Virus record (IMG/VR): IMGVR_UViG_3300026484_000382
Coordinates: 1-64,000 of that record
DNA from: a virus
Length of the DNA: 64,000 nucleotides
Strand: one strand, 5' to 3'
In this document: positions 4,687 to 64,000 of the stretch, one piece after another
Numbering within the stretch: position 1 is the stretch's first letter
Layout of the letters: every line of letters begins with the position of its first letter
The notes under the pieces: model-generated
Database searches by the model: none
Seen by the model: the letters and a program-made list of their open reading frames with translations, nothing else
What the model was told of the DNA's origin: nothing
Made by a program: the position numbers and the translations under genes

Positions 4687-5115
4687 ATGGAAAAACGATC
4701 ATTTACCTTAATAGAATTAATCTTTGTTATTGTGATTATTGGTTTATTGGCAGCAGTAGCAGTTCCTAAGTTCTTAACAACTAAAAAGAATGCAGAAACG
4801 GCTAATTTACCAAGTGTGGGACATCAAGTTGTAACTAAAGCAACAGAACAATACACTATAGTACAAGAAGAGAATTTGTCTAAAATTATAGATGAAGATA
4901 AAGACTTAAAAAGATATTATAATGAAATTAAAGATAATCCATTGTTTGATACTGATAAAAATTACGAAGAATTTAATATATCATGGCATTCAACAGGAGA
5001 AGTGTGTTTGAAAGTGTATAGAGATACTACTGTATATAAAATTAATAAAAATGATGAAGGTATTACATACGACTTCATTGTTAAAGAATTAAATACATCT
5101 TGTAATGCAGATTAA
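4687..5115 (+). CDS. Type IV pilin / type II secretion pseudopilin-like protein
   Basis: 142 residues. The N-terminus is MEKRS followed by FTLIELIFVIVIIGLLAAVA, the class III signal of type IV pilins and pseudopilins: short basic leader, phenylalanine at mature +1, glutamate at +5, then one hydrophobic helix. The residue before the cleavage site is Ser rather than the usual Gly. Two cysteines near the C-terminus (~115 and ~139) could form the disulfide common in these proteins. The ATG at 4687 has AAGGA 8 bases upstream and is preferred over an in-frame ATG at 4663. Cleavage would need a host prepilin peptidase. The gene has its own promoter and terminator, like a cargo gene. Captured host gene or pilus-interference protein are inferences. 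Confidence 0.85.
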   Translation: MEKRSFTLIELIFVIVIIGLLAAVAVPKFLTTKKNAETANLPSVGHQVVTKATEQYTIVQEENLSKIIDEDKDLKRYYNEIKDNPLFDTDKNYEEFNISWHSTGEVCLKVYRDTTVYKINKNDEGITYDFIVKELNTSCNAD

Positions 5116-14015: not shown

Positions 14016-14647
14016 TGTTTGATTTCTTTAATGTAAAAAAACGAGTAAATGAGTTTGATGACTCTTTTATTCGTTTTAGGCTTTATCTGAACTTTATTTA
14101 TGCAATAGGTCTTGCTTTTGCATCACCTGTATCTACAGCTCTTAAAGGGATAGAATTTCAAGGCATTTTGTGGTTAATTCCATTTTTTACATTACTTGGT
14201 GTAATCCTATCTAAATACACTGAATTCCTTGTTAAGAAGTTAACGATACAAATTGCTCATAAATTAATAGGAGTATCTACATTGCTTATAGTTTTTATTC
14301 CATTTATTTATGCTTATAATCACTTTTTAGCAGCCATATATCTATCTGCATTGATTGTTTTTGATGGATTGATATTTGGTGTTTATGGTGTATTTTTAAC
14401 TAACTACATAACAAAAATTAATCCCGAGTTGATAAGCAAATATCAAACAACAAGAATTCATGTTTGGGCAGATGGGGCTTTAATAGGAGGAGTTTTAGCG
14501 TTATTTATCATAGGTAATGATGATATTTGGTATGGAATGTTAGCAGCTGCTGTTGTAGATACAACTATTGTAATAATGTTTATAAATAATTACAAACATA
14601 TAAAAGACATAAAAGAAGAGGAATACAAAATAAAGGATAAAAAATGA
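14015..14647 (+). CDS. Polytopic membrane protein (about six segments)
   Basis: 210 residues with hydrophobic segments at roughly 25-45, 50-68, 80-102, 106-132, 150-166 and 170-190, and a charged C-terminal tail. The length is too short for a full MFS or MATE transporter, but it could be a vitamin/queuosine precursor (YhhQ-like) transporter or another six-helix protein. The sequence gives no diagnostic motif that I can name. It is coupled to the hydrolase gene downstream by a 4-bp overlap. Confidence 0.65.
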   Translation: MFDFFNVKKRVNEFDDSFIRFRLYLNFIYAIGLAFASPVSTALKGIEFQGILWLIPFFTLLGVILSKYTEFLVKKLTIQIAHKLIGVSTLLIVFIPFIYAYNHFLAAIYLSALIVFDGLIFGVYGVFLTNYITKINPELISKYQTTRIHVWADGALIGGVLALFIIGNDDIWYGMLAAAVVDTTIVIMFINNYKHIKDIKEEEYKIKDKK

Positions 14648-15420
14648 TTAGAGAAATAGAATTACTAGGAAACGCAGGAGCATTTGATTTTGATAAGGTG
14701 TCATCAAGTTTCTTAATGAGAAAAGAAAATGATTCCCTTGCACTTATTGATTGTGGACACGGAGTAAATAATGTATTAAAAAAGAGAGGTCTTATAGGGC
14801 AAATCGAGGAAGTTTATATCACTCATACTCATTTTGACCATATAGCTGATTTAGAAGGTTTAATTTATTGTAGATATTTTGTTTACGGTAAAAAAACAAC
14901 TATTAGAACATCAACTACTATTATTGAAGAGTTAAAAAACATATTTGGTAATAGATTTGATACAGAATATTTTAATGGTGAGAATATTCCTGCTCGAATG
15001 GTTGAATATAAAAAAGTAGGAAAGTGTAATGACTATAGACATGGAGATTATGCAGAAGAGTGTTATTTTGATGTAAATCATGGAACTATGAATGCTGTTG
15101 GGTTTAAATTTGTGTCTTATAAACAAGCAGATGGTTATAAAAAAGCAAACAATGTAGTTATAGTATCAGGAGATACAAAAGCTTGTAAAACAATACTTAA
15201 TGAGATTGAAACAATGCCGCAGTGGGTAAATGGTAAATTTATTGTTTTCCACGATTACAGTATGTTTAATAATCCTTGTAAGAATATTCATATGTGCGAG
15301 ATTGATTATGATTTAATGTATGAGAAAGCAGTAGAAGAAGCTAAAGAAAAATGCAAAGATTTTCAACTTTTATTATATCATGATAACTTTAATAATAAAT
15401 TACATAAGGTAGTATTATGA
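14644..15420 (+). CDS. Metallo-beta-lactamase-fold hydrolase
   Basis: 258 residues. The core motif is HTHFDH at residues 61-66 (HxHxDH), preceded by an LALIDCG strand. Later metal-ligand candidates are the Asp in VSGDTKA (~170) and histidines in VFHDY and LYHDN. The SSFLM segment near the N-terminus resembles RNase Z-like phosphodiesterases. Phages encode this fold as the anti-Pycsar enzyme Apyc1, which cleaves cyclic mononucleotides, and the Tad2-like gene lies 2.6 kb upstream, so anti-defence is plausible but unproved. Other options are RNA or nucleotide phosphodiesterases. Confidence 0.8.
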   Translation: MIREIELLGNAGAFDFDKVSSSFLMRKENDSLALIDCGHGVNNVLKKRGLIGQIEEVYITHTHFDHIADLEGLIYCRYFVYGKKTTIRTSTTIIEELKNIFGNRFDTEYFNGENIPARMVEYKKVGKCNDYRHGDYAEECYFDVNHGTMNAVGFKFVSYKQADGYKKANNVVIVSGDTKACKTILNEIETMPQWVNGKFIVFHDYSMFNNPCKNIHMCEIDYDLMYEKAVEEAKEKCKDFQLLLYHDNFNNKLHKVVL

Positions 15421-16073: not shown

Positions 16074-16952
16074 ATGGGAGCTAATCGTTTTCTATTGTAT
16101 AAACAAGCTATAACAGAACAAGAACTTATAAAATCTATAAATAGACGAATTTCTGGGATAAAGAAAAAAAATAAAGACTTTTCAGTTTTAACACATTCTC
16201 AGCTATTTAATTTTTTTGATTTGAAAAGAAAGTATTTAGATTGGATAAAAGAAAAGAAAAATTCTTTAGATGGTTTTTTAGAAAATGCAAAAGGTGGGAT
16301 GAATAAAAATTACTTTAATAGTTTATTAAAAGATTATCAAGAAATTGAAGAGAAAAAACCAGATTTAGTAAACAAAGCTGCTTACAAAGCATTAGATGAT
16401 TTACTTGATGATGGTTTTTTTCAAGCGAGAGGTATAGGTGGAAAATATTTTAGAGATAAAGGTATAATAATAGGAAAACAAAAACAAACAAATGGAAGAA
16501 GATCTACTCTATTCCATGAATTAAATGAACACTCTAATAGAAATAAGAAAGTAAATTGGTATGATTTGAACAAATCAAAAGATGATGAAATTACACATTA
16601 CAATGTGTCCAATGTAAAGGGATTAGACCATAATTTGTTAGTAACAGCAAAGGGTAAATTAAGAAAAGATTTAGAGTTAGTTGGTAAATACTCGAAAAAT
16701 AATGGAGGTTATACACTAGAAAAACTTGTTAGGAGAGTTCTTGGAAAGGACAATCCAGAATTTTTAAACTGGGAGTATGGAAAAGGAAGAAAATTAAATA
16801 GACATCACAGAAAAAAACTTTTAGAGTTTGAACATAAGCATGCTAGTAACTTTCAAAGCCCTTTAAATGATTCTTACTTAAGAAACATTAAAAATAAAAA
16901 TAGAAACAAAAAGAAAAAAGCAATTTTTTCAGAATATATAAAATACATTTAA
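16074..16952 (+). CDS. Putative virion-internal protein with LLYKQA motif
   Basis: 292 residues. The N-terminus MGANRFLLYKQAIT resembles the L-x-K-x-A motif of other virion-like proteins here. The body is highly basic and helical. A STLFHELNEH segment at ~144-153 looks like a zinc-peptidase helix but has HExxxH rather than HExxH, so I do not call it a protease. The C-terminus is very Lys/Asn-rich. Single-gene unit with its own promoter-like signal. Confidence 0.65.
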   Translation: MGANRFLLYKQAITEQELIKSINRRISGIKKKNKDFSVLTHSQLFNFFDLKRKYLDWIKEKKNSLDGFLENAKGGMNKNYFNSLLKDYQEIEEKKPDLVNKAAYKALDDLLDDGFFQARGIGGKYFRDKGIIIGKQKQTNGRRSTLFHELNEHSNRNKKVNWYDLNKSKDDEITHYNVSNVKGLDHNLLVTAKGKLRKDLELVGKYSKNNGGYTLEKLVRRVLGKDNPEFLNWEYGKGRKLNRHHRKKLLEFEHKHASNFQSPLNDSYLRNIKNKNRNKKKKAIFSEYIKYI

Positions 16953-17962: not shown

Positions 17963-18058
17963 ATGAAAAAGATGCATAAACTAAAAAGAGTTTGTAAAGT
18001 TAAAGTAGAGAAAACAAAAAGGTTTTTAAAGACCTTTAATTGGAAATGTGAATTTTAA
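17963..18058 (+). CDS. Very small basic protein (tentative)
   Basis: 31 residues, MKKMHKLKRVCKVKVEKTKR at its start and ending in KCEF. AGGAAAGTAC precedes the ATG 8 bp after the HNH gene. Net charge is strongly positive. The reading frame includes a hairpin that may be a terminator, so it may not be expressed. Confidence 0.3.
   Translation: MKKMHKLKRVCKVKVEKTKRFLKTFNWKCEF
18018..18042. terminator. Candidate bidirectional terminator between convergent genes
   Basis: AAAGGT (18018-18023) pairs with ACCTTT (18032-18037) around an 8-nt loop, flanked by A-runs on the left. It lies between the plus-strand HNH gene and the minus-strand gene ending at 18055. The stem is short. Confidence 0.35.
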
Positions 18059-18594
18059 TATCCATTTTCCTCTCTGTTTTGTCTAGCTTTGTAAACACCA
18101 TACCCACCTGCTAATGTTAGAGCACCAGCCCCAATACCAGTCTTTATTTTATTCTCTTTCATCCAGTTTAAAACACTATTACCTGATTTAGTTGTAGTAT
18201 CTATATTTGTATTGTATATCTTTTGCTTAAATCTTTTTCTTTCTTCTGCTTTGTTTTTTAATTTTTTGATAGAAATAGGTGTTTCATTGTTAAGGTTAAT
18301 TTCTTGTTGTATATTTTTAACTTCAGGTGTTTCTTTTTGTGATGCCCTATATTGATCTCTTTCTGCTTTAAACTTTGTTTTAGACCCCTGTCCAGAAATA
18401 TGTTTTAACTCTTTATGTTCTTCTGGGGTAATTAAACCATTTGCTAGCATTTCATCTAGCTTTTTGTGTAATTTGTTTTGTTTCCCGTTAAATTCATTAC
18501 TATTAACAAAATCCATTATAAACTTATTATTACCGAATCTATCTTTTATTTTATTATAATAAGCCGTTTTAATTAAGTATTGTGTTGCATTCAT
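18055..18594 (-). CDS. LIKTA-tagged protein with C-terminal glycine-rich membrane segment
   Basis: 179 residues. The N-terminus MNATQYLIKTAYYNK carries the shared motif. The middle is charged and helical. Residues ~150-170 are a hydrophobic glycine-rich segment (GIGAGALTLAGGYGVY) followed by a basic tail. The same layout (motif, charged body, Gly-rich helix, basic end) occurs at 22567-23004 and 59625-60029. AAAAAAAAAGGAAAAAC precedes the ATG on the minus strand, after a TATAAT (complement of 18616-18621). Confidence 0.7.
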   Translation of the reverse strand: MNATQYLIKTAYYNKIKDRFGNNKFIMDFVNSNEFNGKQNKLHKKLDEMLANGLITPEEHKELKHISGQGSKTKFKAERDQYRASQKETPEVKNIQQEINLNNETPISIKKLKNKAEERKRFKQKIYNTNIDTTTKSGNSVLNWMKENKIKTGIGAGALTLAGGYGVYKARQNREENGY

Positions 18595-22566: not shown

Positions 22567-23004
22567 ATGAGAAGTTTTAATTTAATTAAGACAGCGGCTA
22601 AGAAAAAAGATAATGGACTTAACACAGCTGAAAAAGCTGCTATAGCAAGTGCAGGAGTTGGGGCAGCTGCTTTATCACCTTATGCAGCGAAAAGTGTTAT
22701 GAAAATGTTAGCAGAAAGAAGTGGTAAAAAAGCAGATAAATTATTAGCAAAAGCTGATACTTATAAAAATGCTAACAAATCAGGATGGTTCGGTGGTCTA
22801 AGAGAAGGTCACAAGAAAGAACATGAAGAGTTAATGGAAGTTTATAGAAAACAAGCAGAAGCAGCAAATAGAGCTCAAGGTAGAGCAGATTCTGTTGCAG
22901 GGTTTGTAGACAAACATGGTAAAAAATTAAAATATGCCGCAGGTGCAGGTGCCGCAGGTGCAGGAACTGGTTTAGTATATGGACAAGGACAAAGAAGAAG
23001 TTAA
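22567..23004 (+). CDS. LIKTA-tagged protein with two Gly/Ala-rich segments
   Basis: 145 residues from the ATG at 22567 (AAAAAAAGGATTAACA upstream). An earlier in-frame ATG at 22510 overlaps the previous gene and is unlikely. The N-terminus MRSFNLIKTAAKKK carries the shared motif. Residues ~22-45 are Ala/Gly-rich (AAIASAGVGAAALSPYAA). Residues ~120-140 are a Gly/Ala helix (AAGAGAAGAGTGLVYGQG) followed by a basic end. Likely packaged in the virion, with membrane activity inferred. Confidence 0.7.
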   Translation: MRSFNLIKTAAKKKDNGLNTAEKAAIASAGVGAAALSPYAAKSVMKMLAERSGKKADKLLAKADTYKNANKSGWFGGLREGHKKEHEELMEVYRKQAEAANRAQGRADSVAGFVDKHGKKLKYAAGAGAAGAGTGLVYGQGQRRS

Positions 23005-53683: not shown

Positions 53684-54055
53684 ATGGATTTACTAAAAGT
53701 AGCAAACGACCCATATGCGAGTTATTTAACAAAAACAGCCGCGGTGATCAGTGATTTTGAACAAGGAAGAATTACTGCTGATGAAGCGTTTGGAGCAGCT
53801 CAAGAAATGGGAATTGCACCACAAGATTTAGTTGCAGCTCAAGAAGTTTTATTTAAAGAAGCTTCAGAAAGTGCTAGCCTTGAAAAAGTAGCATCAATTG
53901 TAGATGACCCTTATTGCACACCACTTGAAAAAGTAGCAGCGATTGTAGACGGTATTGCTGCAGGAACTGTTGATTATGATGCAGGAACTCAAGTTGCAGC
54001 TCAATTAGGATTTGATGCTCAAGACATGGAATATATCTACGCACAAACTCACTAA
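53684..54055 (+). CDS. Small virion-type protein made of two ~50-residue repeats with L-x-K-x-A motifs
   Basis: 123 residues. The halves NDPYASYLTKTAAVISDFEQ and DDPYCTPLEKVAAIVDGIAA begin two similar helical units with the same internal spacing. Motif-like segments are LLKVA (3-7), LTKTA (15-19), FKEA (~57), LEKVA (~66) and LEKVA (~81). Many potential sites in a small helical protein resemble a core or scaffold protein cleaved at several points. Its own promoter-like signal and a strong terminator flank it. Confidence 0.6.
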   Translation: MDLLKVANDPYASYLTKTAAVISDFEQGRITADEAFGAAQEMGIAPQDLVAAQEVLFKEASESASLEKVASIVDDPYCTPLEKVAAIVDGIAAGTVDYDAGTQVAAQLGFDAQDMEYIYAQTH

Positions 54056-56070: not shown

Positions 56071-56478
56071 TTATCTAGACAAACTTCCTGCTGTTTGAAT
56101 GTATTTTAATGCTTTTTCTGTTTTAGAACCTCTATTAATATCAGCAATAATTTTAGCTGTTGCTAAATCAACATTACCACCATATTGATGAATTTGATAT
56201 ATAGCATCTGCCATCAATTCTTTATTATCAGCCATTCTAGGAGATAAAGTATAAACTGCTCCAGCCCATGCTTTTAATTTACTGTCAGACACTTCTCCTA
56301 ACTCTGGATGTTTTCTTTTAGCATATTTAACAATACTATTTAATCTAATCTTAAACATTAAATCATCTGTTTGCTGAATTACCTTTTCAGCTCCTACTAA
56401 TGTTGCCGTTGTTCCACCTACTGTCATAGCAATATCTTCTAATTTACTTTTCTCAGCTATTTTTTCTAAATAAGACAT
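56071..56478 (-). CDS. Leftward-islet helical protein with terminal motif-like ends
   Basis: 135 residues. N-terminus MSYLEKIAEKSK (an LxKxA-like start), body helical (KIRLNSIVKYAKRKHPELGE), C-terminus YIQTAGSLSR, which parallels VKTAGLSRS of the neighbouring protein. AAAAAAAGGATTTCAA precedes the ATG on the minus strand, after a TATAAT (complement of 56501-56506). First gene of the leftward islet. Confidence 0.6.
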   Translation of the reverse strand: MSYLEKIAEKSKLEDIAMTVGGTTATLVGAEKVIQQTDDLMFKIRLNSIVKYAKRKHPELGEVSDSKLKAWAGAVYTLSPRMADNKELMADAIYQIHQYGGNVDLATAKIIADINRGSKTEKALKYIQTAGSLSR

Positions 56479-59624: not shown

Positions 59625-60029
59625 ATGAGAGCATTTGACCTTATCAAAACTGCAGGTGCAGAATATGGATACGACGAACAAGACAATGAAGGACTATCTC
59701 CAGTAGCTAAAGCAGCAATCGCAGCAGGGCTTCTTACAGCAGGTGGAGCAGGATTAAAATATGGTGGTCCTAAATTAGCAGACCACATGATGGATAAAGT
59801 TAATAAATTAGGCGATGAAAGTGAAAAAATTAAAGCAATGTTAAAAAAGAAAAAAGATGATAAACCTCTTTATGAAAATGCTAGTAAGGCTAAAGAAGCT
59901 TTAAATAAAAAATGGCAAAAATTAAAAGAGATCGGTGAGCACAAACATGGTGGGAAAGCACTTATTGGTGGAGGTGTTACAACTGCAGCTCTTGCTGGAA
60001 CAGATTACTACCAAAGAAATAGAGGGTAA
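59625..60029 (+). CDS. LIKTA-tagged protein with Gly-rich segments
   Basis: 134 residues. The N-terminus MRAFDLIKTAGAEYGYD closely parallels MRSFNLIKTAAKKK of the protein at 22567-23004. Residues ~26-48 are Ala/Gly-rich (AKAAIAAGLLTAGGAGLKYG). A charged helix follows, and the end (GGKALIGGGVTTAALAG) is another Gly/Ala helix with a basic tail. Likely a packaged virion protein near the capsid genes. Confidence 0.7.
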   Translation: MRAFDLIKTAGAEYGYDEQDNEGLSPVAKAAIAAGLLTAGGAGLKYGGPKLADHMMDKVNKLGDESEKIKAMLKKKKDDKPLYENASKAKEALNKKWQKLKEIGEHKHGGKALIGGGVTTAALAGTDYYQRNRG

Positions 60030-60116: not shown

Positions 60117-60578
60117 ATGAATTCAAAAAGTTACTTTTTATTTAAAACAGCTGATGACAATAATAATGGTGTTGGGACAGGAACTATTGCAGGAGGTGCT
60201 TTAGCATTAGGTGGGCTTGGAAGTATGGGATACGGACATAATTTAATTAATAAAGCTACACCTGATACTCCACTATTTTCAAAAGGAAACCAACTTGGTA
60301 CATTAGGATATGGTGCTGCAAATATCCAACAAACTAAAACAATTGGAGAAGCAAATACAAAAAAAATTAATGATTTTGTTGAGTTTAATGGTGGAAAAGA
60401 AAAATTTGATGTTAACAATCTAGATGAAACAGGAAAGAAGACATATAATAAAATGTTAACAGAAGGTGAAAATATAGCTAATTTAGGAAAAGGTTCTAAA
60501 TTTATGCATTATGGGAAAATTGGTGGACTACTTGGTGGTGGAATGATGTTAGGATCAATGCTAACCAATAATAATTAA
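60117..60578 (+). CDS. LFKTA-tagged protein with two glycine-zipper helices
   Basis: 153 residues. N-terminus MNSKSYFLFKTADDN. Glycine-rich segments ~20-40 (GTIAGGALALGGLGSMGYG) and ~135-148 (IGGLLGGGMMLGSM). Middle is soluble and charged. The pattern is the same as other motif proteins. Membrane pore or injected protein is an inference. Confidence 0.7.
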   Translation: MNSKSYFLFKTADDNNNGVGTGTIAGGALALGGLGSMGYGHNLINKATPDTPLFSKGNQLGTLGYGAANIQQTKTIGEANTKKINDFVEFNGGKEKFDVNNLDETGKKTYNKMLTEGENIANLGKGSKFMHYGKIGGLLGGGMMLGSMLTNNN

Positions 60579-60590
60579 AAAGGATATAAA

Positions 60591-60845
60591 ATGAAGATAG
60601 AACAAATTTCTGAACTATTAGAAAAAACAGCTGCTCATATAGAGATGCTTGAAAATGAAAACAATATGTTAAGAAAAAAATTAGAAGAAAGTGTTTCTGC
60701 AGTTAATTTAAACAAAGAAGCTTCTTTTGATTTTTCAGATGTAGTAAATAACGACTATGATTCTTTAGGGCAACCTTCTAATTATTCCCCGAGTAATCAA
60801 CTTTCTTCTGGGCAAAAATTAGAAGAGTTCTTAAATAATTTATAA
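60591..60845 (+). CDS. Small coiled-coil protein with LLEKTA motif
   Basis: 84 residues. Residues 8-14 ELLEKTA resemble the motif in a coiled-coil context (IEMLENENNMLRKKLEE), and LNKEAS follows at ~43. The C-terminus is Ser/Asn/Gln-rich. AAAAGGATATAAA precedes the ATG. May be a scaffold-like or capsid-associated protein. Confidence 0.55.
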   Translation: MKIEQISELLEKTAAHIEMLENENNMLRKKLEESVSAVNLNKEASFDFSDVVNNDYDSLGQPSNYSPSNQLSSGQKLEEFLNNL

Positions 60846-60931: not shown

Positions 60932-61318
60932 ATGAAGAATATTGATATTGTAAGAGGTTATAGAACCTTTAGTCATGAAGACTTATATGATGCTGATGCA
61001 ACTGTAACAATTGTGCCGGGAGATGTTATAGGTCTTGACGGAAACAAAATAACATTAGAAAAAACGCATAAAGAAGCTGGAATCGCTCTTGAGTCAAACA
61101 AAGATATTGCTGGTAATAAACCAAGTGGAAAAATCCCAGTATGTGTTAGTAATTTTGTTGTAAGATTTTATAGACCGGTTCCGGATGAGGTTAATTTAGG
61201 TGATCCTGTTACAGTTATTGATGGAAAACCATCTAAAACAGACGATGACCATACGGTAATTTGGGGATATGTTACAAGAATAGACGAAACATCTTTTGAT
61301 GTTAGAGTAAATTATTAA
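60932..61318 (+). CDS. Capsid decoration-like protein
   Basis: 128 residues, beta-rich, one domain. Directly before the capsid gene. Pattern (GDVIGLDGNKITL, IPVCVSNFVVRFY, GDPVTVIDGKPSK) resembles small head decoration proteins. AAAAAAAGGATAAGCAA precedes the start. Confidence 0.6.
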   Translation: MKNIDIVRGYRTFSHEDLYDADATVTIVPGDVIGLDGNKITLEKTHKEAGIALESNKDIAGNKPSGKIPVCVSNFVVRFYRPVPDEVNLGDPVTVIDGKPSKTDDDHTVIWGYVTRIDETSFDVRVNY

Positions 61319-61335: not shown

Positions 61336-62271
61336 ATGAGTATTAATGTAGAAACTCCAGTAATTCAACAAAACACAGGGTTAATTAAAGCAGCTTATGC
61401 TGGTGGTGACCTTTTAAAACAAGCTATGGATAACAGCACATACTTTATTAGGGATAAAGTAAGAGAACTTGGTTTTGCTAGAAAAGTGATTGAACCCATT
61501 TTTGTTACAAGTGCAGATTTAGATAGAGTTCCAAACAATGAACAACCTGCTATCATCTTAGAAAAAGATATCGAAAGTAAAGGGATGACAGTGCCATTCA
61601 GAGGGCAAGGAGAACAAAGATATTGGGAAAGAGAAGACATGGTTGTTAATTTCCAAAAAATTGAATCAGAAAGAATTAACAAATCTAAATTCGAAATGAT
61701 GACTTCTAAAACTCCATATACTGAAGTTCTTAAAAAAAGAATTGTTGAAGAAGTGCAAAAAGTTGAAGATGAAACTTTAATGAACGGATTTAATGCTATC
61801 ATAGAAAAAGCAGAAGAAGAAGCTCCTGGTACACAATATCAAGAATTAGAAGGTGGATTAAATAAAACAAACATTAAGATATTAATCCAAATGCTTTCAA
61901 GATTAAAAATGATTCCACCAACAGGTCCAAAACCAAAAATCTTAATGACACAAAACCTTAAATTAGAACTAATTGAATTAGGTATGATTGAGATTGGTGA
62001 TTCTAATGTTGGAAAATATTGGAATGAAGGTGTAGTTGGGGTAGATAAATTATTCAATATCCCTGTAGTATCTACAATTAAAAATGATTTAGTAAAAGAT
62101 GATGAAGTGTTTATTATTGCTCCTCAAGATTACTTCGGAAGATTCTTTATTTTACAAGACCACACAATGGTTATTGAGACTAAAGCAGATATGATGAATA
62201 TGTATACTTATGCTGCTATGGGAATGGGATTCGTTAATACAAAAGGTGTATGTAAGATTAAATTATCTTAA
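61336..62271 (+). CDS. Major capsid protein (HK97 fold)
   Basis: 311 residues. The order of segments (N-arm; ~75-100 E-loop-like VPFRGQGEQRYWERED; ~105-150 spine helix; FDVI-like P-domain; C-terminal TADMMNMYTYAAMGMGFVN) fits a compact HK97-fold capsid protein. The N-arm contains GLIKAA (15-20) and LLKQA (26-30), both like the recurring motif, perhaps marking a cleaved prodomain. Abundance is suggested by a strong AAAAAAAAGGATAAGAC leader. Confidence 0.8.
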   Translation: MSINVETPVIQQNTGLIKAAYAGGDLLKQAMDNSTYFIRDKVRELGFARKVIEPIFVTSADLDRVPNNEQPAIILEKDIESKGMTVPFRGQGEQRYWEREDMVVNFQKIESERINKSKFEMMTSKTPYTEVLKKRIVEEVQKVEDETLMNGFNAIIEKAEEEAPGTQYQELEGGLNKTNIKILIQMLSRLKMIPPTGPKPKILMTQNLKLELIELGMIEIGDSNVGKYWNEGVVGVDKLFNIPVVSTIKNDLVKDDEVFIIAPQDYFGRFFILQDHTMVIETKADMMNMYTYAAMGMGFVNTKGVCKIKLS

Positions 62272-62347: not shown

Positions 62348-63301
62348 ATGATTTTTGGTAATGCTCAAAAGTATGTATCGATAGCAAAACAAATTATTAA
62401 TGAAATAAGTCATGGGGGAGACAACCCAGAGGAATTATTGAATAAGTATGCTAAAGAATACAATCTAAATGACAACATGAAACAAAGAGTTGTAGAAGAA
62501 TATAATGTAAATATGTTTTTAAGTAAATTGAAAGATGGTAGTCACCAAGAGCATTACGTATTATTGAATCCTGTTATTGATGAAACACAAAAATGGAATT
62601 CTATCATTGAAAAAAATAATAAAGAAAATGAACATAAAAAGAATATGACTAAAACAGCTTTTTACAATGAAGAAGCTAATATTGTGTTTAAAAATAATTC
62701 AATGGAATATGACCATGACCCACTTTTAAATGGTTCTTTTTCCGATAAAACATTGGTAAGTTCTTTTGAGTACGGAGATACTTCTGATTTACTTAAAGAT
62801 GCTTCTTACAGAGAAAAACGTAGAGAAGAAGAGAAGTTTAAAGAGTTAGTAAAAACTGCTCACTATAAAGGTCATGAAGTTATAAATCAATTAGCAAATG
62901 ATTTAATAAAAGTAGCAAACATTTCAACAGGAGCTACAAAAACTATAATTTATGATTTAATTAAAGAAGGGCATGAAGATATTGCTAATACTGTTATGGA
63001 AAACTGCAAATACAAACCAAACGAAATACTTGCAGCAAAAATGACAGATGGTATATTTGAGCAAGATTTGCCTTTATTAAAAACATCTCAAGAACTTATA
63101 AAAGAAGCAACTATAAGTAAATTAATTATGAGAGTAATATCAGAAAAAGGTATGGAACATATTGGAAGTGCTTTAAACAAAATAAAAACTATGGTAGGGC
63201 CTAAAAATAGAGCAAAAATATATATGGCTTATGTAATGAGCAAATTCCTTACAGATAAAAAGCCTGGCGCATTACACAATAGTTTTATTCAGAACGCTTA
63301 A
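62348..63301 (+). CDS. Capsid-region protein with five L-x-K-x-A motifs
   Basis: 317 residues. The ATG at 62348 follows AAAAAAAAAGGATAAAT. An earlier in-frame start at 62210 overlaps the capsid gene and is rejected. Motif-like segments: MTKTA (100-104), LLKDA (148-152), LVKTA (167-171), LIKVA (186-190) and LIKEA (250-254). They lie between helical or charged parts, as in phage core or scaffold proteins cut at several sites. Directly after the capsid gene. Function inferred. Confidence 0.6.
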   Translation: MIFGNAQKYVSIAKQIINEISHGGDNPEELLNKYAKEYNLNDNMKQRVVEEYNVNMFLSKLKDGSHQEHYVLLNPVIDETQKWNSIIEKNNKENEHKKNMTKTAFYNEEANIVFKNNSMEYDHDPLLNGSFSDKTLVSSFEYGDTSDLLKDASYREKRREEEKFKELVKTAHYKGHEVINQLANDLIKVANISTGATKTIIYDLIKEGHEDIANTVMENCKYKPNEILAAKMTDGIFEQDLPLLKTSQELIKEATISKLIMRVISEKGMEHIGSALNKIKTMVGPKNRAKIYMAYVMSKFLTDKKPGALHNSFIQNA

Positions 63302-63312
63302 AAGGATATAAT

Positions 63313-63447
63313 ATGGAAAACAATCAAAATTTAATTAAAATAGCTCAGGTAGTTAAAGAGCACGCAAAAAAATGGTATTTAAAAAAAATGGCAGCGTTAA
63401 AAATAATAGACACTATAGATGCATATAAAGAGGCAATGAAGAACTGA
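63313..63447 (+). CDS. Small NLIKIA-tagged protein
   Basis: 44 residues, MENNQNLIKIAQVVKEHA then a basic helix (KKWYLKKMAALKIID). AAAGGATATA precedes the ATG, 11 bp after the previous stop. Carries the motif at 7-11. Too short for family assignment. Confidence 0.5.
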   Translation: MENNQNLIKIAQVVKEHAKKWYLKKMAALKIIDTIDAYKEAMKN

Positions 63448-63476: not shown

Positions 63477-63512
63477 GCCCCAACTTTAATTTATGGGGCT
63501 TACTGCTCTTTT
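63477..63512. terminator. Bidirectional terminator at convergent gene ends
   Basis: GCCCCA (63477-63482) pairs with TGGGGC (63494-63499) with an 11-nt loop. A T-rich tract follows on the plus strand (CTCTTTTTT from 63507). It separates the rightward capsid operon from a leftward gene. Confidence 0.6.
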
Positions 63513-64000
63513 TTGCTGTTATTGACTGCTTTGTGTGCAAAATAAGCTTGAGCGGCTCCTACAGTACCTATTCCACCCATAGTTTGTCCTTGTAATTTAG
63601 CTTCTTGTTTTATTAATTTTTTAAACAGATCTTTACTTTCAGCTAACAACTCATTTTTTTCACTTTTCGGTATCTCGTCAAGTACTTTTGTTGCCTGTTT
63701 AAGATTATAAATACGGTGTAACCCTTTTCCTAGTGCACCTGCTATTACACCTATCCCCGCACTTCTATTTATCTCAGCATCACTAGAACCCATTTGTTTT
63801 GCTAATAATGGAGCAGCTACAGACCCTCCTAATAAACCTAACTCAACTGGTAAAGAAAAACTTTTATATCCTTTTTTGCCTTGCAAAACTTGAACAAGAT
63901 AAGGAATATCTTCTTGTAGTAGAACCCCTGATGCAGCACCTCCAGCTGCAGAAATCCCATCACTTATCATTTTTTTACTTTTATCAGAATCTTTTTTGTT
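63500..64000 (-). CDS. Glycine-rich membrane-type protein (likely 5' truncated by window)
   Basis: Leftward frame ending at 63500. An internal ATG at 63970 would give 156 residues, but no ribosome-binding site precedes it, and the frame stays open to the window edge with ten further codons (NKKDSDKSKK), so the true start is probably outside. Gly/Ala-rich segments at ~8-18, ~45-65 and ~70-85 of the visible part (LGLLGGSVAAPLLA, GIGVIAGALGKG) and a final MGGIGTVGAAQAYFAH. Same style as the other glycine-zipper proteins. Confidence 0.6.
   Translation of the reverse strand, partial: NKKDSDKSKKMISDGISAAGGAASGVLLQEDIPYLVQVLQGKKGYKSFSLPVELGLLGGSVAAPLLAKQMGSSDAEINRSAGIGVIAGALGKGLHRIYNLKQATKVLDEIPKSEKNELLAESKDLFKKLIKQEAKLQGQTMGGIGTVGAAQAYFAHKAVNNSKKEQ

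Follow-up and report, generated by a model that had tools for sequence, protein, structure and literature searches.

The open reading frame (ORF) at positions 62348–63301 (plus strand) of the virus record IMGVR_UViG_3300026484_000382 encodes a protein of 317 amino acids (aa) with six copies of the motif [LM]xKxA. We propose that this protein belongs to the inner core of the prohead and is cut at multiple sites by the serine maturation protease (herpesvirus/T4 type) which the phage itself encodes, a reading to which we assign a probability of about 0.8. The window analyzed here comprises bases 1–64000 of the 74,701-base record. A first-pass annotation of the window, made from sequence alone, had already suggested a core protein carrying sites for a maturation protease. 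This suggestion is supported, as the motif flanks the protease domain, precedes the fold of the major capsid protein (MCP), marks head genes only and recurs in the family of gp220 of Salmonella phage Arash, to which the core ORF is related; cutting at these sites would still be a prediction. The data support a wider finding than was first claimed, namely that the motif would be a genome-wide code of a phage group and not the property of one protein. The best reading is a new cleavage specificity within a known kind of head-maturation system.

The core ORF starts 76 bases after an MCP-like ORF (61336–62271, plus strand), so that its position directly after the major capsid gene, as stated in the first-pass annotation, was confirmed. 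Its ATG is preceded by AAAAGG. A start at the upstream ATG, at 62210, would make the ORF run into the MCP gene, and homologues begin at the Met corresponding to 62348. The five LxKxA-like segments described earlier were found at residues 31 (LNKYA), 148 (LLKDA), 167 (LVKTA), 186 (LIKVA) and 250 (LIKEA), counting from the first residue of each motif, and a sixth site has the form MxKxA (MTKTA at 100). Shuffled versions of the protein contain on average 0.18 LxKxA and 0.27 [LM]xKxA, and none of 20,000 shuffles equalled the observed count of either pattern. The middle sites, 148, 167 and 186, are spaced by exactly 19 residues and fall within one predicted helix. When the six sites were compared in four homologues, an L-like residue was kept in 23, K in 20 and A in 19 of 24 cases, whereas the two x positions were kept in only 8 and 10; the remaining core protein is 44% identical. 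The structure model is mostly helical with a disordered middle and has modest confidence (predicted local distance difference test, pLDDT, 66.4; predicted template modelling score, pTM, 0.44). A Pfam search gave no match above the cutoff for the MCP, the core protein or the protease.

To quantify the motif genome-wide, genes were called in the record (G000) and in nine related sequences, and each triple of the form a-x-b-x-c was counted against an expectation from the composition of each protein. LxKxA occurs 33 times in the whole record (8.4 expected), which is rank 1 of the triples tested. It is the top-ranked triple in nine of the ten sequence sets and comes third, after EEE and AVA, in the remaining one (Vibrio phage D69). 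These sets cannot be taken as independent, the MCP of G001 being 96% identical to that of the window. G003 and G004 were treated as near-copies, because their identities to the window's proteins are equal in nearly all rows. With all 16 spacings included (128,000 gapped triples), LxKxA kept the top rank in G000, G004, G005 and G006, and it had rank 3 when the complete Arash genome was counted. Pooled over five sets, it reaches 3.14 times expectation, compared with 0.91–1.59 times for 17 permuted or substituted versions (single control motifs: AxKxL 1.34, LxRxA 1.25, LxExA 1.22 and LxKxS 1.19 times). LxKxA is at expectation in phage SPN3US (28 vs. 27.7) and near it in 50 kb of T4 (7 vs. 5.2). 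A chance or composition effect of helical proteins rich in Lys, Leu and Ala would fit the predicted helicity of the core protein, and single chance sites do exist, e.g., inside the ATPase motif of the terminase. However, the composition-matched expectations, the shuffles and the permuted motifs refute such an effect for the motif as a whole, and we give it next to no weight.

A maturation protease had been expected outside the window, and a candidate is present at record positions 70767–71432. Its product of 221 aa matches the head maturation protease family phrog_18299 (E-value 1.2e-11), and it is related, among others, to Arash gp222, phage G gp19 and Stormageddon gp13, of which the last is annotated as a capsid maturation protease. 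An alignment of the protease with dereplicated relatives no shorter than 200 aa comprised 82 rows. The catalytic-type residues His95 and Ser146 are kept in 78/78 and 80/80 of those rows which have a residue at the respective position, and both are also found in phage G, Colt and Stormageddon. At the site of the protease, L, K and A are each conserved in five of five sequences, the x positions in none and one. Residues 156–173 of the protease show the pattern CxxC...CxH (C156, C159 and C171 in at least 79 of 81 sequences, H173 invariant in six aligned ones), which looks like a zinc site within the protease domain.

The MCP carries LIKAA at residue 16 and LLKQA at residue 26, the latter conserved in 8/8 aligned MCPs. 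In order to follow the motif across a larger group, IMG/VR was scanned twice, with patterns inside the protease domain and inside the MCP domain, yielding 280 and 141 relatives, respectively; 80 and 79 loci were retained. In these, we found 130 proteases and 131 MCPs, which dereplication reduced to 82 and 64; nine proteases and one MCP were left out due to a too short N terminus, so that 73 and 63 proteins were tested. K-x-A is present within the 32 residues before the domain in all 73 proteases (shuffled mean 16.6, maximum 27) and in all 63 MCPs (shuffled mean 13.9, maximum 27), whereas RxA, ExA, QxA, KxG, KxS, KxV and AxK are no more frequent there than in shuffled sequences. The stricter pattern [LM]xKxA, with a slightly looser cut, was found in 57 of 76 proteases (shuffled 2.3) and 37 of 63 MCPs (shuffled 1.7). 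These counts lend support to the earlier idea of a recognition sequence other than the [LI]xE of T4, although they concern putative cleavage sites. An MCP from locus L215, 54% identical to that of the window, is encoded on a contig which belongs to a single-cell genome of Sulfurimonas; the host may therefore be a bacterium of the Campylobacterota.

Across the relatives, the L of the motif is swapped for I, F, H, R or other residues while K-x-A is retained, and Ser or Ala directly follows the motif Ala in 116 of 254 sites and, in the separate test of dereplicated proteases, in 52 of 73 protease sites. Since L varies and K-x-A does not, and since Ser or Ala is so frequent behind it, we place the cut after Ala: the bond would probably be A|S or A|A, with K at P3 and A at P1. 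The protease would then recognize K-x-A where a large aliphatic residue, in most cases L, stands two positions ahead of K, and it would prefer Ser or Ala after A. A cut after Lys (LxK|xA) would amount to the T4 rule LxE| with its charge reversed, and L at P3 with a charged P1 parallels the L/I-x-E| of T4 as given in the available part of PMC9026906. Against such a cut stand the replacement of L among relatives with an intact K-x-A in every protease and MCP tested, and the strong preference for a small residue after A, comparable to Ser at P1' in SPN3US; we consider it unlikely.

The arrangement of the sites around the protease domain bears on whether the motif is cut at all. A C-terminal extension is present in 61 proteases, and in 57 of these [LIVMF]xKxA follows the domain by no more than 40 residues (at one common offset in 52). 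The proteases of the window's lineage (218–224 aa) stop where their relatives carry this second site, and G005 retains MTKTA plus six residues. An alternative would be that LxKxA is a docking motif bound by a hub of the internal core, which gathers the MCP, the protease and a set of small proteins with the motif near their N terminus (tagged proteins, see below) into the prohead. Recruitment would likewise be expected of a short linear motif that lies close to N termini and recurs within scaffolds, the tags resemble targeting sequences, and peptides of the Arash proteins stay in virions. However, docking leaves unexplained why the motif is found at a constant short distance from either end of the protease domain and shortly before the MCP fold, why Ser or Ala is preferred immediately after it, and why the unextended proteases stop at the second site of their relatives. 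Thus, we regard docking as improbable and favor recognition by the protease.

Homology between the core protein and Arash could be approached only with profiles, because a direct tblastn search of 50,697 phage records with the core protein gave no match even at an E-value of 10. A profile of five core homologues finds weaker relatives upstream of the protease in Arash-like loci, with one exception (row L071 8876). These matches overlap the family of Arash gp220, some members being common to both profile searches. In hhalign, the core protein matched the 46-member gp220 family over the N-terminal domain with a probability of 95.4% (E-value 2e-8), and with all motifs masked the probability was 76.4% (E-value 2.2e-5). 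Proteins of the gp220 family contain on average 4.5 [LM]xKxA each, compared with 0.36 expected. The usual place of the family is just upstream of the protease; the gene in the window instead follows the MCP, with the protease about 7.5 kb further on. Membership of the core ORF in the gp220 family is consequently based on homology, not on gene position. Arash gp220 (genome OQ632216) shares the homologous N-terminal domain and the multiple sites. In contrast to Arash, the window's lineage has its core gene after the MCP and its protease elsewhere and without the C-terminal extension.

Several observations weigh against our reading. For all members of the group, protein cutting is something we infer from sequence. 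The core site at 250 is kept in two of four aligned homologues and the MCP site at 16 in only two of seven. The core model is confident only in part, and the protease model, built from four sequences, is poor (pLDDT 55.5); structure searches with it matched no solved relative or head protease. Further, known cleavage motifs do not come out on top in their own genomes (AxES has rank 851 in SPN3US, LxEA rank 1121 in the 50 kb part of T4). Because these positive controls failed to rank high, missing enrichment in another phage does not imply a missing protease. Actinophages with relatives of the protease (Colt, Stormageddon and Finch) show no LxKxA enrichment. Finally, gp220 was detected in purified Arash virions with 95.77% coverage and 289 spectra (Table 2 in the available part of PMC10585845). 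The same virion list contains gp220 to gp224 with 85–100% coverage (gp220, gp221, gp223 and gp224 with 96–100%; PMC10585845), values which are hard to weigh, since 100% coverage is given there for many proteins with two unique peptides. From this coverage it follows that the head retains fragments or protein left uncut, and complete removal after cutting is unsupported.

A further rival, which matches these virion data, is that the core ORF does not encode a scaffold; its product would be an internal or ejected protein of the virion, subject to one or a few trimming cuts and retained in the head. While the presence of gp220 in virions speaks for it, six sites, three of them at 19-residue intervals in one predicted helix, fit cutting to pieces better, and a place beside the protease or the MCP would be typical of core genes. 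This rival appears doubtful to us, and the multi-site core substrate remains our preferred interpretation. In the same table (PMC10585845), coverage of the Arash MCP is 86.64%, which would agree with the removal of some 29 residues from the N terminus but is no proof of it. We further picked 16 Arash proteins with [LM]xKxA in the first 35 residues or with at least two sites (one more start-codon match was counted; gene numbers were matched by hand, and gp225 is possibly gp225.1). Fourteen of these 16 are in the virion table, compared with 116 of 252 proteins overall (p = 5e-4), and among proteins with at least three sites it is 7 of 7 (p = 4e-3).

Based on these results, we propose the following sequence of events. 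The core protein, the protease and the small tagged proteins would assemble beneath the MCP shell. The protease would then release itself at the K-x-A before its own domain, and in most relatives a cut at the second site would free a C-terminal extension, one that the window's lineage has lost. Next, it would cut the N-terminal arm of the MCP after LLKQA, trim the N-terminal tags of the small proteins, and cleave the core protein at as many as six sites, the middle ones being spaced by 19 residues. The resulting fragments would partly exit and partly remain in the head, as the gp220 peptides in Arash virions suggest.

The distribution of the motif along the record points to the head genes as well. 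In the head module at 53.6–74.7 kb, 29 [LM]xKxA sites were seen in 34 genes (4.3 expected), compared with 2 vs. 4.1 in the tail, baseplate and fibre region and 2 vs. 2.9 in the first 18 kb (early region). Across 59 dereplicated MCP loci, a 6- to 13-fold excess of the motif was seen in genes −2 to −9, counted upstream from the MCP, whereas gene −1 (53 genes in these loci) has 2 sites vs. 3.0 expected (0.7-fold). In the window, the siteless gene right before the MCP (60932–61318, plus strand) probably encodes an outer decoration protein, judging by its position. Two further multi-site proteins with five sites each are encoded in the head module, one of 123 aa at 53684–54055 (plus strand; all LxKxA) and one outside the window at record positions 66698–67195 (one of the five being ITKLA). 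A small head-module protein of 84 aa (60591–60845, plus strand) has LEKTA at 10 and LNKEA at 40. A small ORF of 44 aa after the core gene (63313–63447, plus strand), whose homologues in relatives adjoin the core gene, has LIKIA at 7 and LKKMA at 23. A PHROGs search gave nothing useful for the other multi-site families.

In addition, many proteins carry the motif close to their N terminus. Fifteen of 101 proteins called in the record have [LIFMVY]xKxA starting at residues 2–16, and LxKxA within the first 30 residues was seen 16 times (1.03 expected). On the plus strand, such tags are found in the products of 364–1515 (LLKEA at residue 3), 16074–16952 (LYKQA at 8), 22567–23004 (LIKTA at 6), 59625–60029 (LIKTA at 6) and 60117–60578 (LFKTA at 8). 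On the minus strand, they are found in those of 18055–18594 (LIKTA at 7), 56071–56478 (LEKIA at 4; homologues in relatives 48–52% identical) and 63500–64000 (LIKTA at 6; the gene runs to record position 64030). These proteins resemble the capsid-targeting sequences of T4 in having a short N-terminal stretch that ends in a putative protease site. N-terminal tags are not top-enriched across Arash (rank 28, 8 seen vs. 2.66 expected), and the first 40 residues of G005 proteins hold no significant motif excess (p = 0.19). A hydrophobic segment rich in Gly or Ala was observed in the tagged proteins of 18055–18594, 60117–60578 and 63500–64000 and of record positions 70016–70777 and 71831–72262; tagged proteins of this kind may be ejected proteins which enter a membrane. 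Gly-zippers were found in 17 of 65 tagged and 40 of 605 untagged proteins (odds ratio 5.0, with thresholds set by us and related genomes). We do not rely on this link, as p < 0.05 in single genomes was reached only in G000 and Arash.

Among known systems, herpesvirus assemblin is a fusion of protease and scaffold with a release site and is cut at Ala|Ser. Most relatives studied here likewise consist of protease domain, site and C-terminal extension, and their motif Ala is often followed by Ser; in contrast, the window's lineage has no extension, and no structural match was obtained with the poor protease model. In T4, gp21 cuts after L/I-X-E, splits core proteins into several fragments and trims short targeting sequences (available part of PMC9026906). 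The predicted substrates here would be of the same kinds as in T4 (the MCP arm, core proteins, which in T4 are gp22, gp67 and gp68, and short N-terminal tags of internal proteins), with the rule (L)xKxA instead of L/I-x-E|. No T4 row was among the 37 matches of the core profile at an E-value of 0.01 in a set including T4 70–120 kb; distant homology is possible. The accessible parts of two further reports describe A-x-E| with Ser preferred at P1' for SPN3US gp245 (PMC10052503) and S-x-E|, with Glu at P1, for phiKZ gp175 (PMC5694885). Multi-site propeptides and a code of the form P3-x-P1 are common to these phages and the present group, whereas these phages have Glu at P1 and no acidic residue is required here. 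Bacillus phage G has a homologue of the protease (tblastn E-value 2e-15) with LVKTAA before and LEKVAS after the domain, and the MCP profile matches the 6wkk chain of phage G gp27 (E-value 0.0011). It differs in a moderate LxKxA enrichment in its first 50 kb (12 vs. 5.2) and in an MCP without a clear site, so that its use of the code is suggestive only.

Whether a large, as yet uncharacterized phage group, comprising Arash, the Vibrio phages D69, D148 and D181, numerous IMG/VR contigs of up to about 210 kb and possibly phage G, uses a Lys-x-Ala| code in the manner of herpesvirus proteases, extended in the window's lineage by an N-terminal import-and-trim tag, is a tentative generalization to which we give slightly less than even odds. 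As cleavage after Glu has been described for the T4, phiKZ and SPN3US enzymes, a K-x-A family would form a second specificity class and would bring phage proteases closer to herpesvirus assemblins. It would also give a testable annotation rule for scaffolds, propeptides and packaged proteins where databases match almost nothing. If the rule is true, the set of packaged and injected proteins of an uncultured phage could be read from its genome. For the cultured relative Arash, virion mass spectra exist and are open to re-search. A literature search returned, among the matches listed, no paper on an LxKxA motif, subscription papers being mostly not covered. In Gordonia phage Stormageddon (L218 6339–15174), RxAS is over-represented in the portal, gp12 and the protease (8 vs. 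1.4), and is perhaps an Arg-x-Ala version of the code.

Some other genes of the record were characterized in passing. Outside the window, record positions 73960–74701 (L013:11961–12701) hold the start of a large protein, whose G004 homologue has 1440 aa and matches VPHD69_0261 of phage D69. Its product presumably resembles the beta subunit of RNA polymerase (RpoB), and a Pfam search of the fragment found no match. The most detected virion protein of Arash is gp206, annotated as RNA polymerase beta subunit (available part of PMC10585845). At 4687–5112 (plus strand), a type IV pilin-like N-terminal methylation signal was detected (PF07963, E-value 2.1e-5). The ORF at 14644–15420 (plus strand) encodes a protein with a metallo-beta-lactamase fold and a sub-cutoff match to the anti-Pycsar protein Apyc1 (PF23023, E-value 4.9e-6), which makes it a possible counter-defence enzyme.
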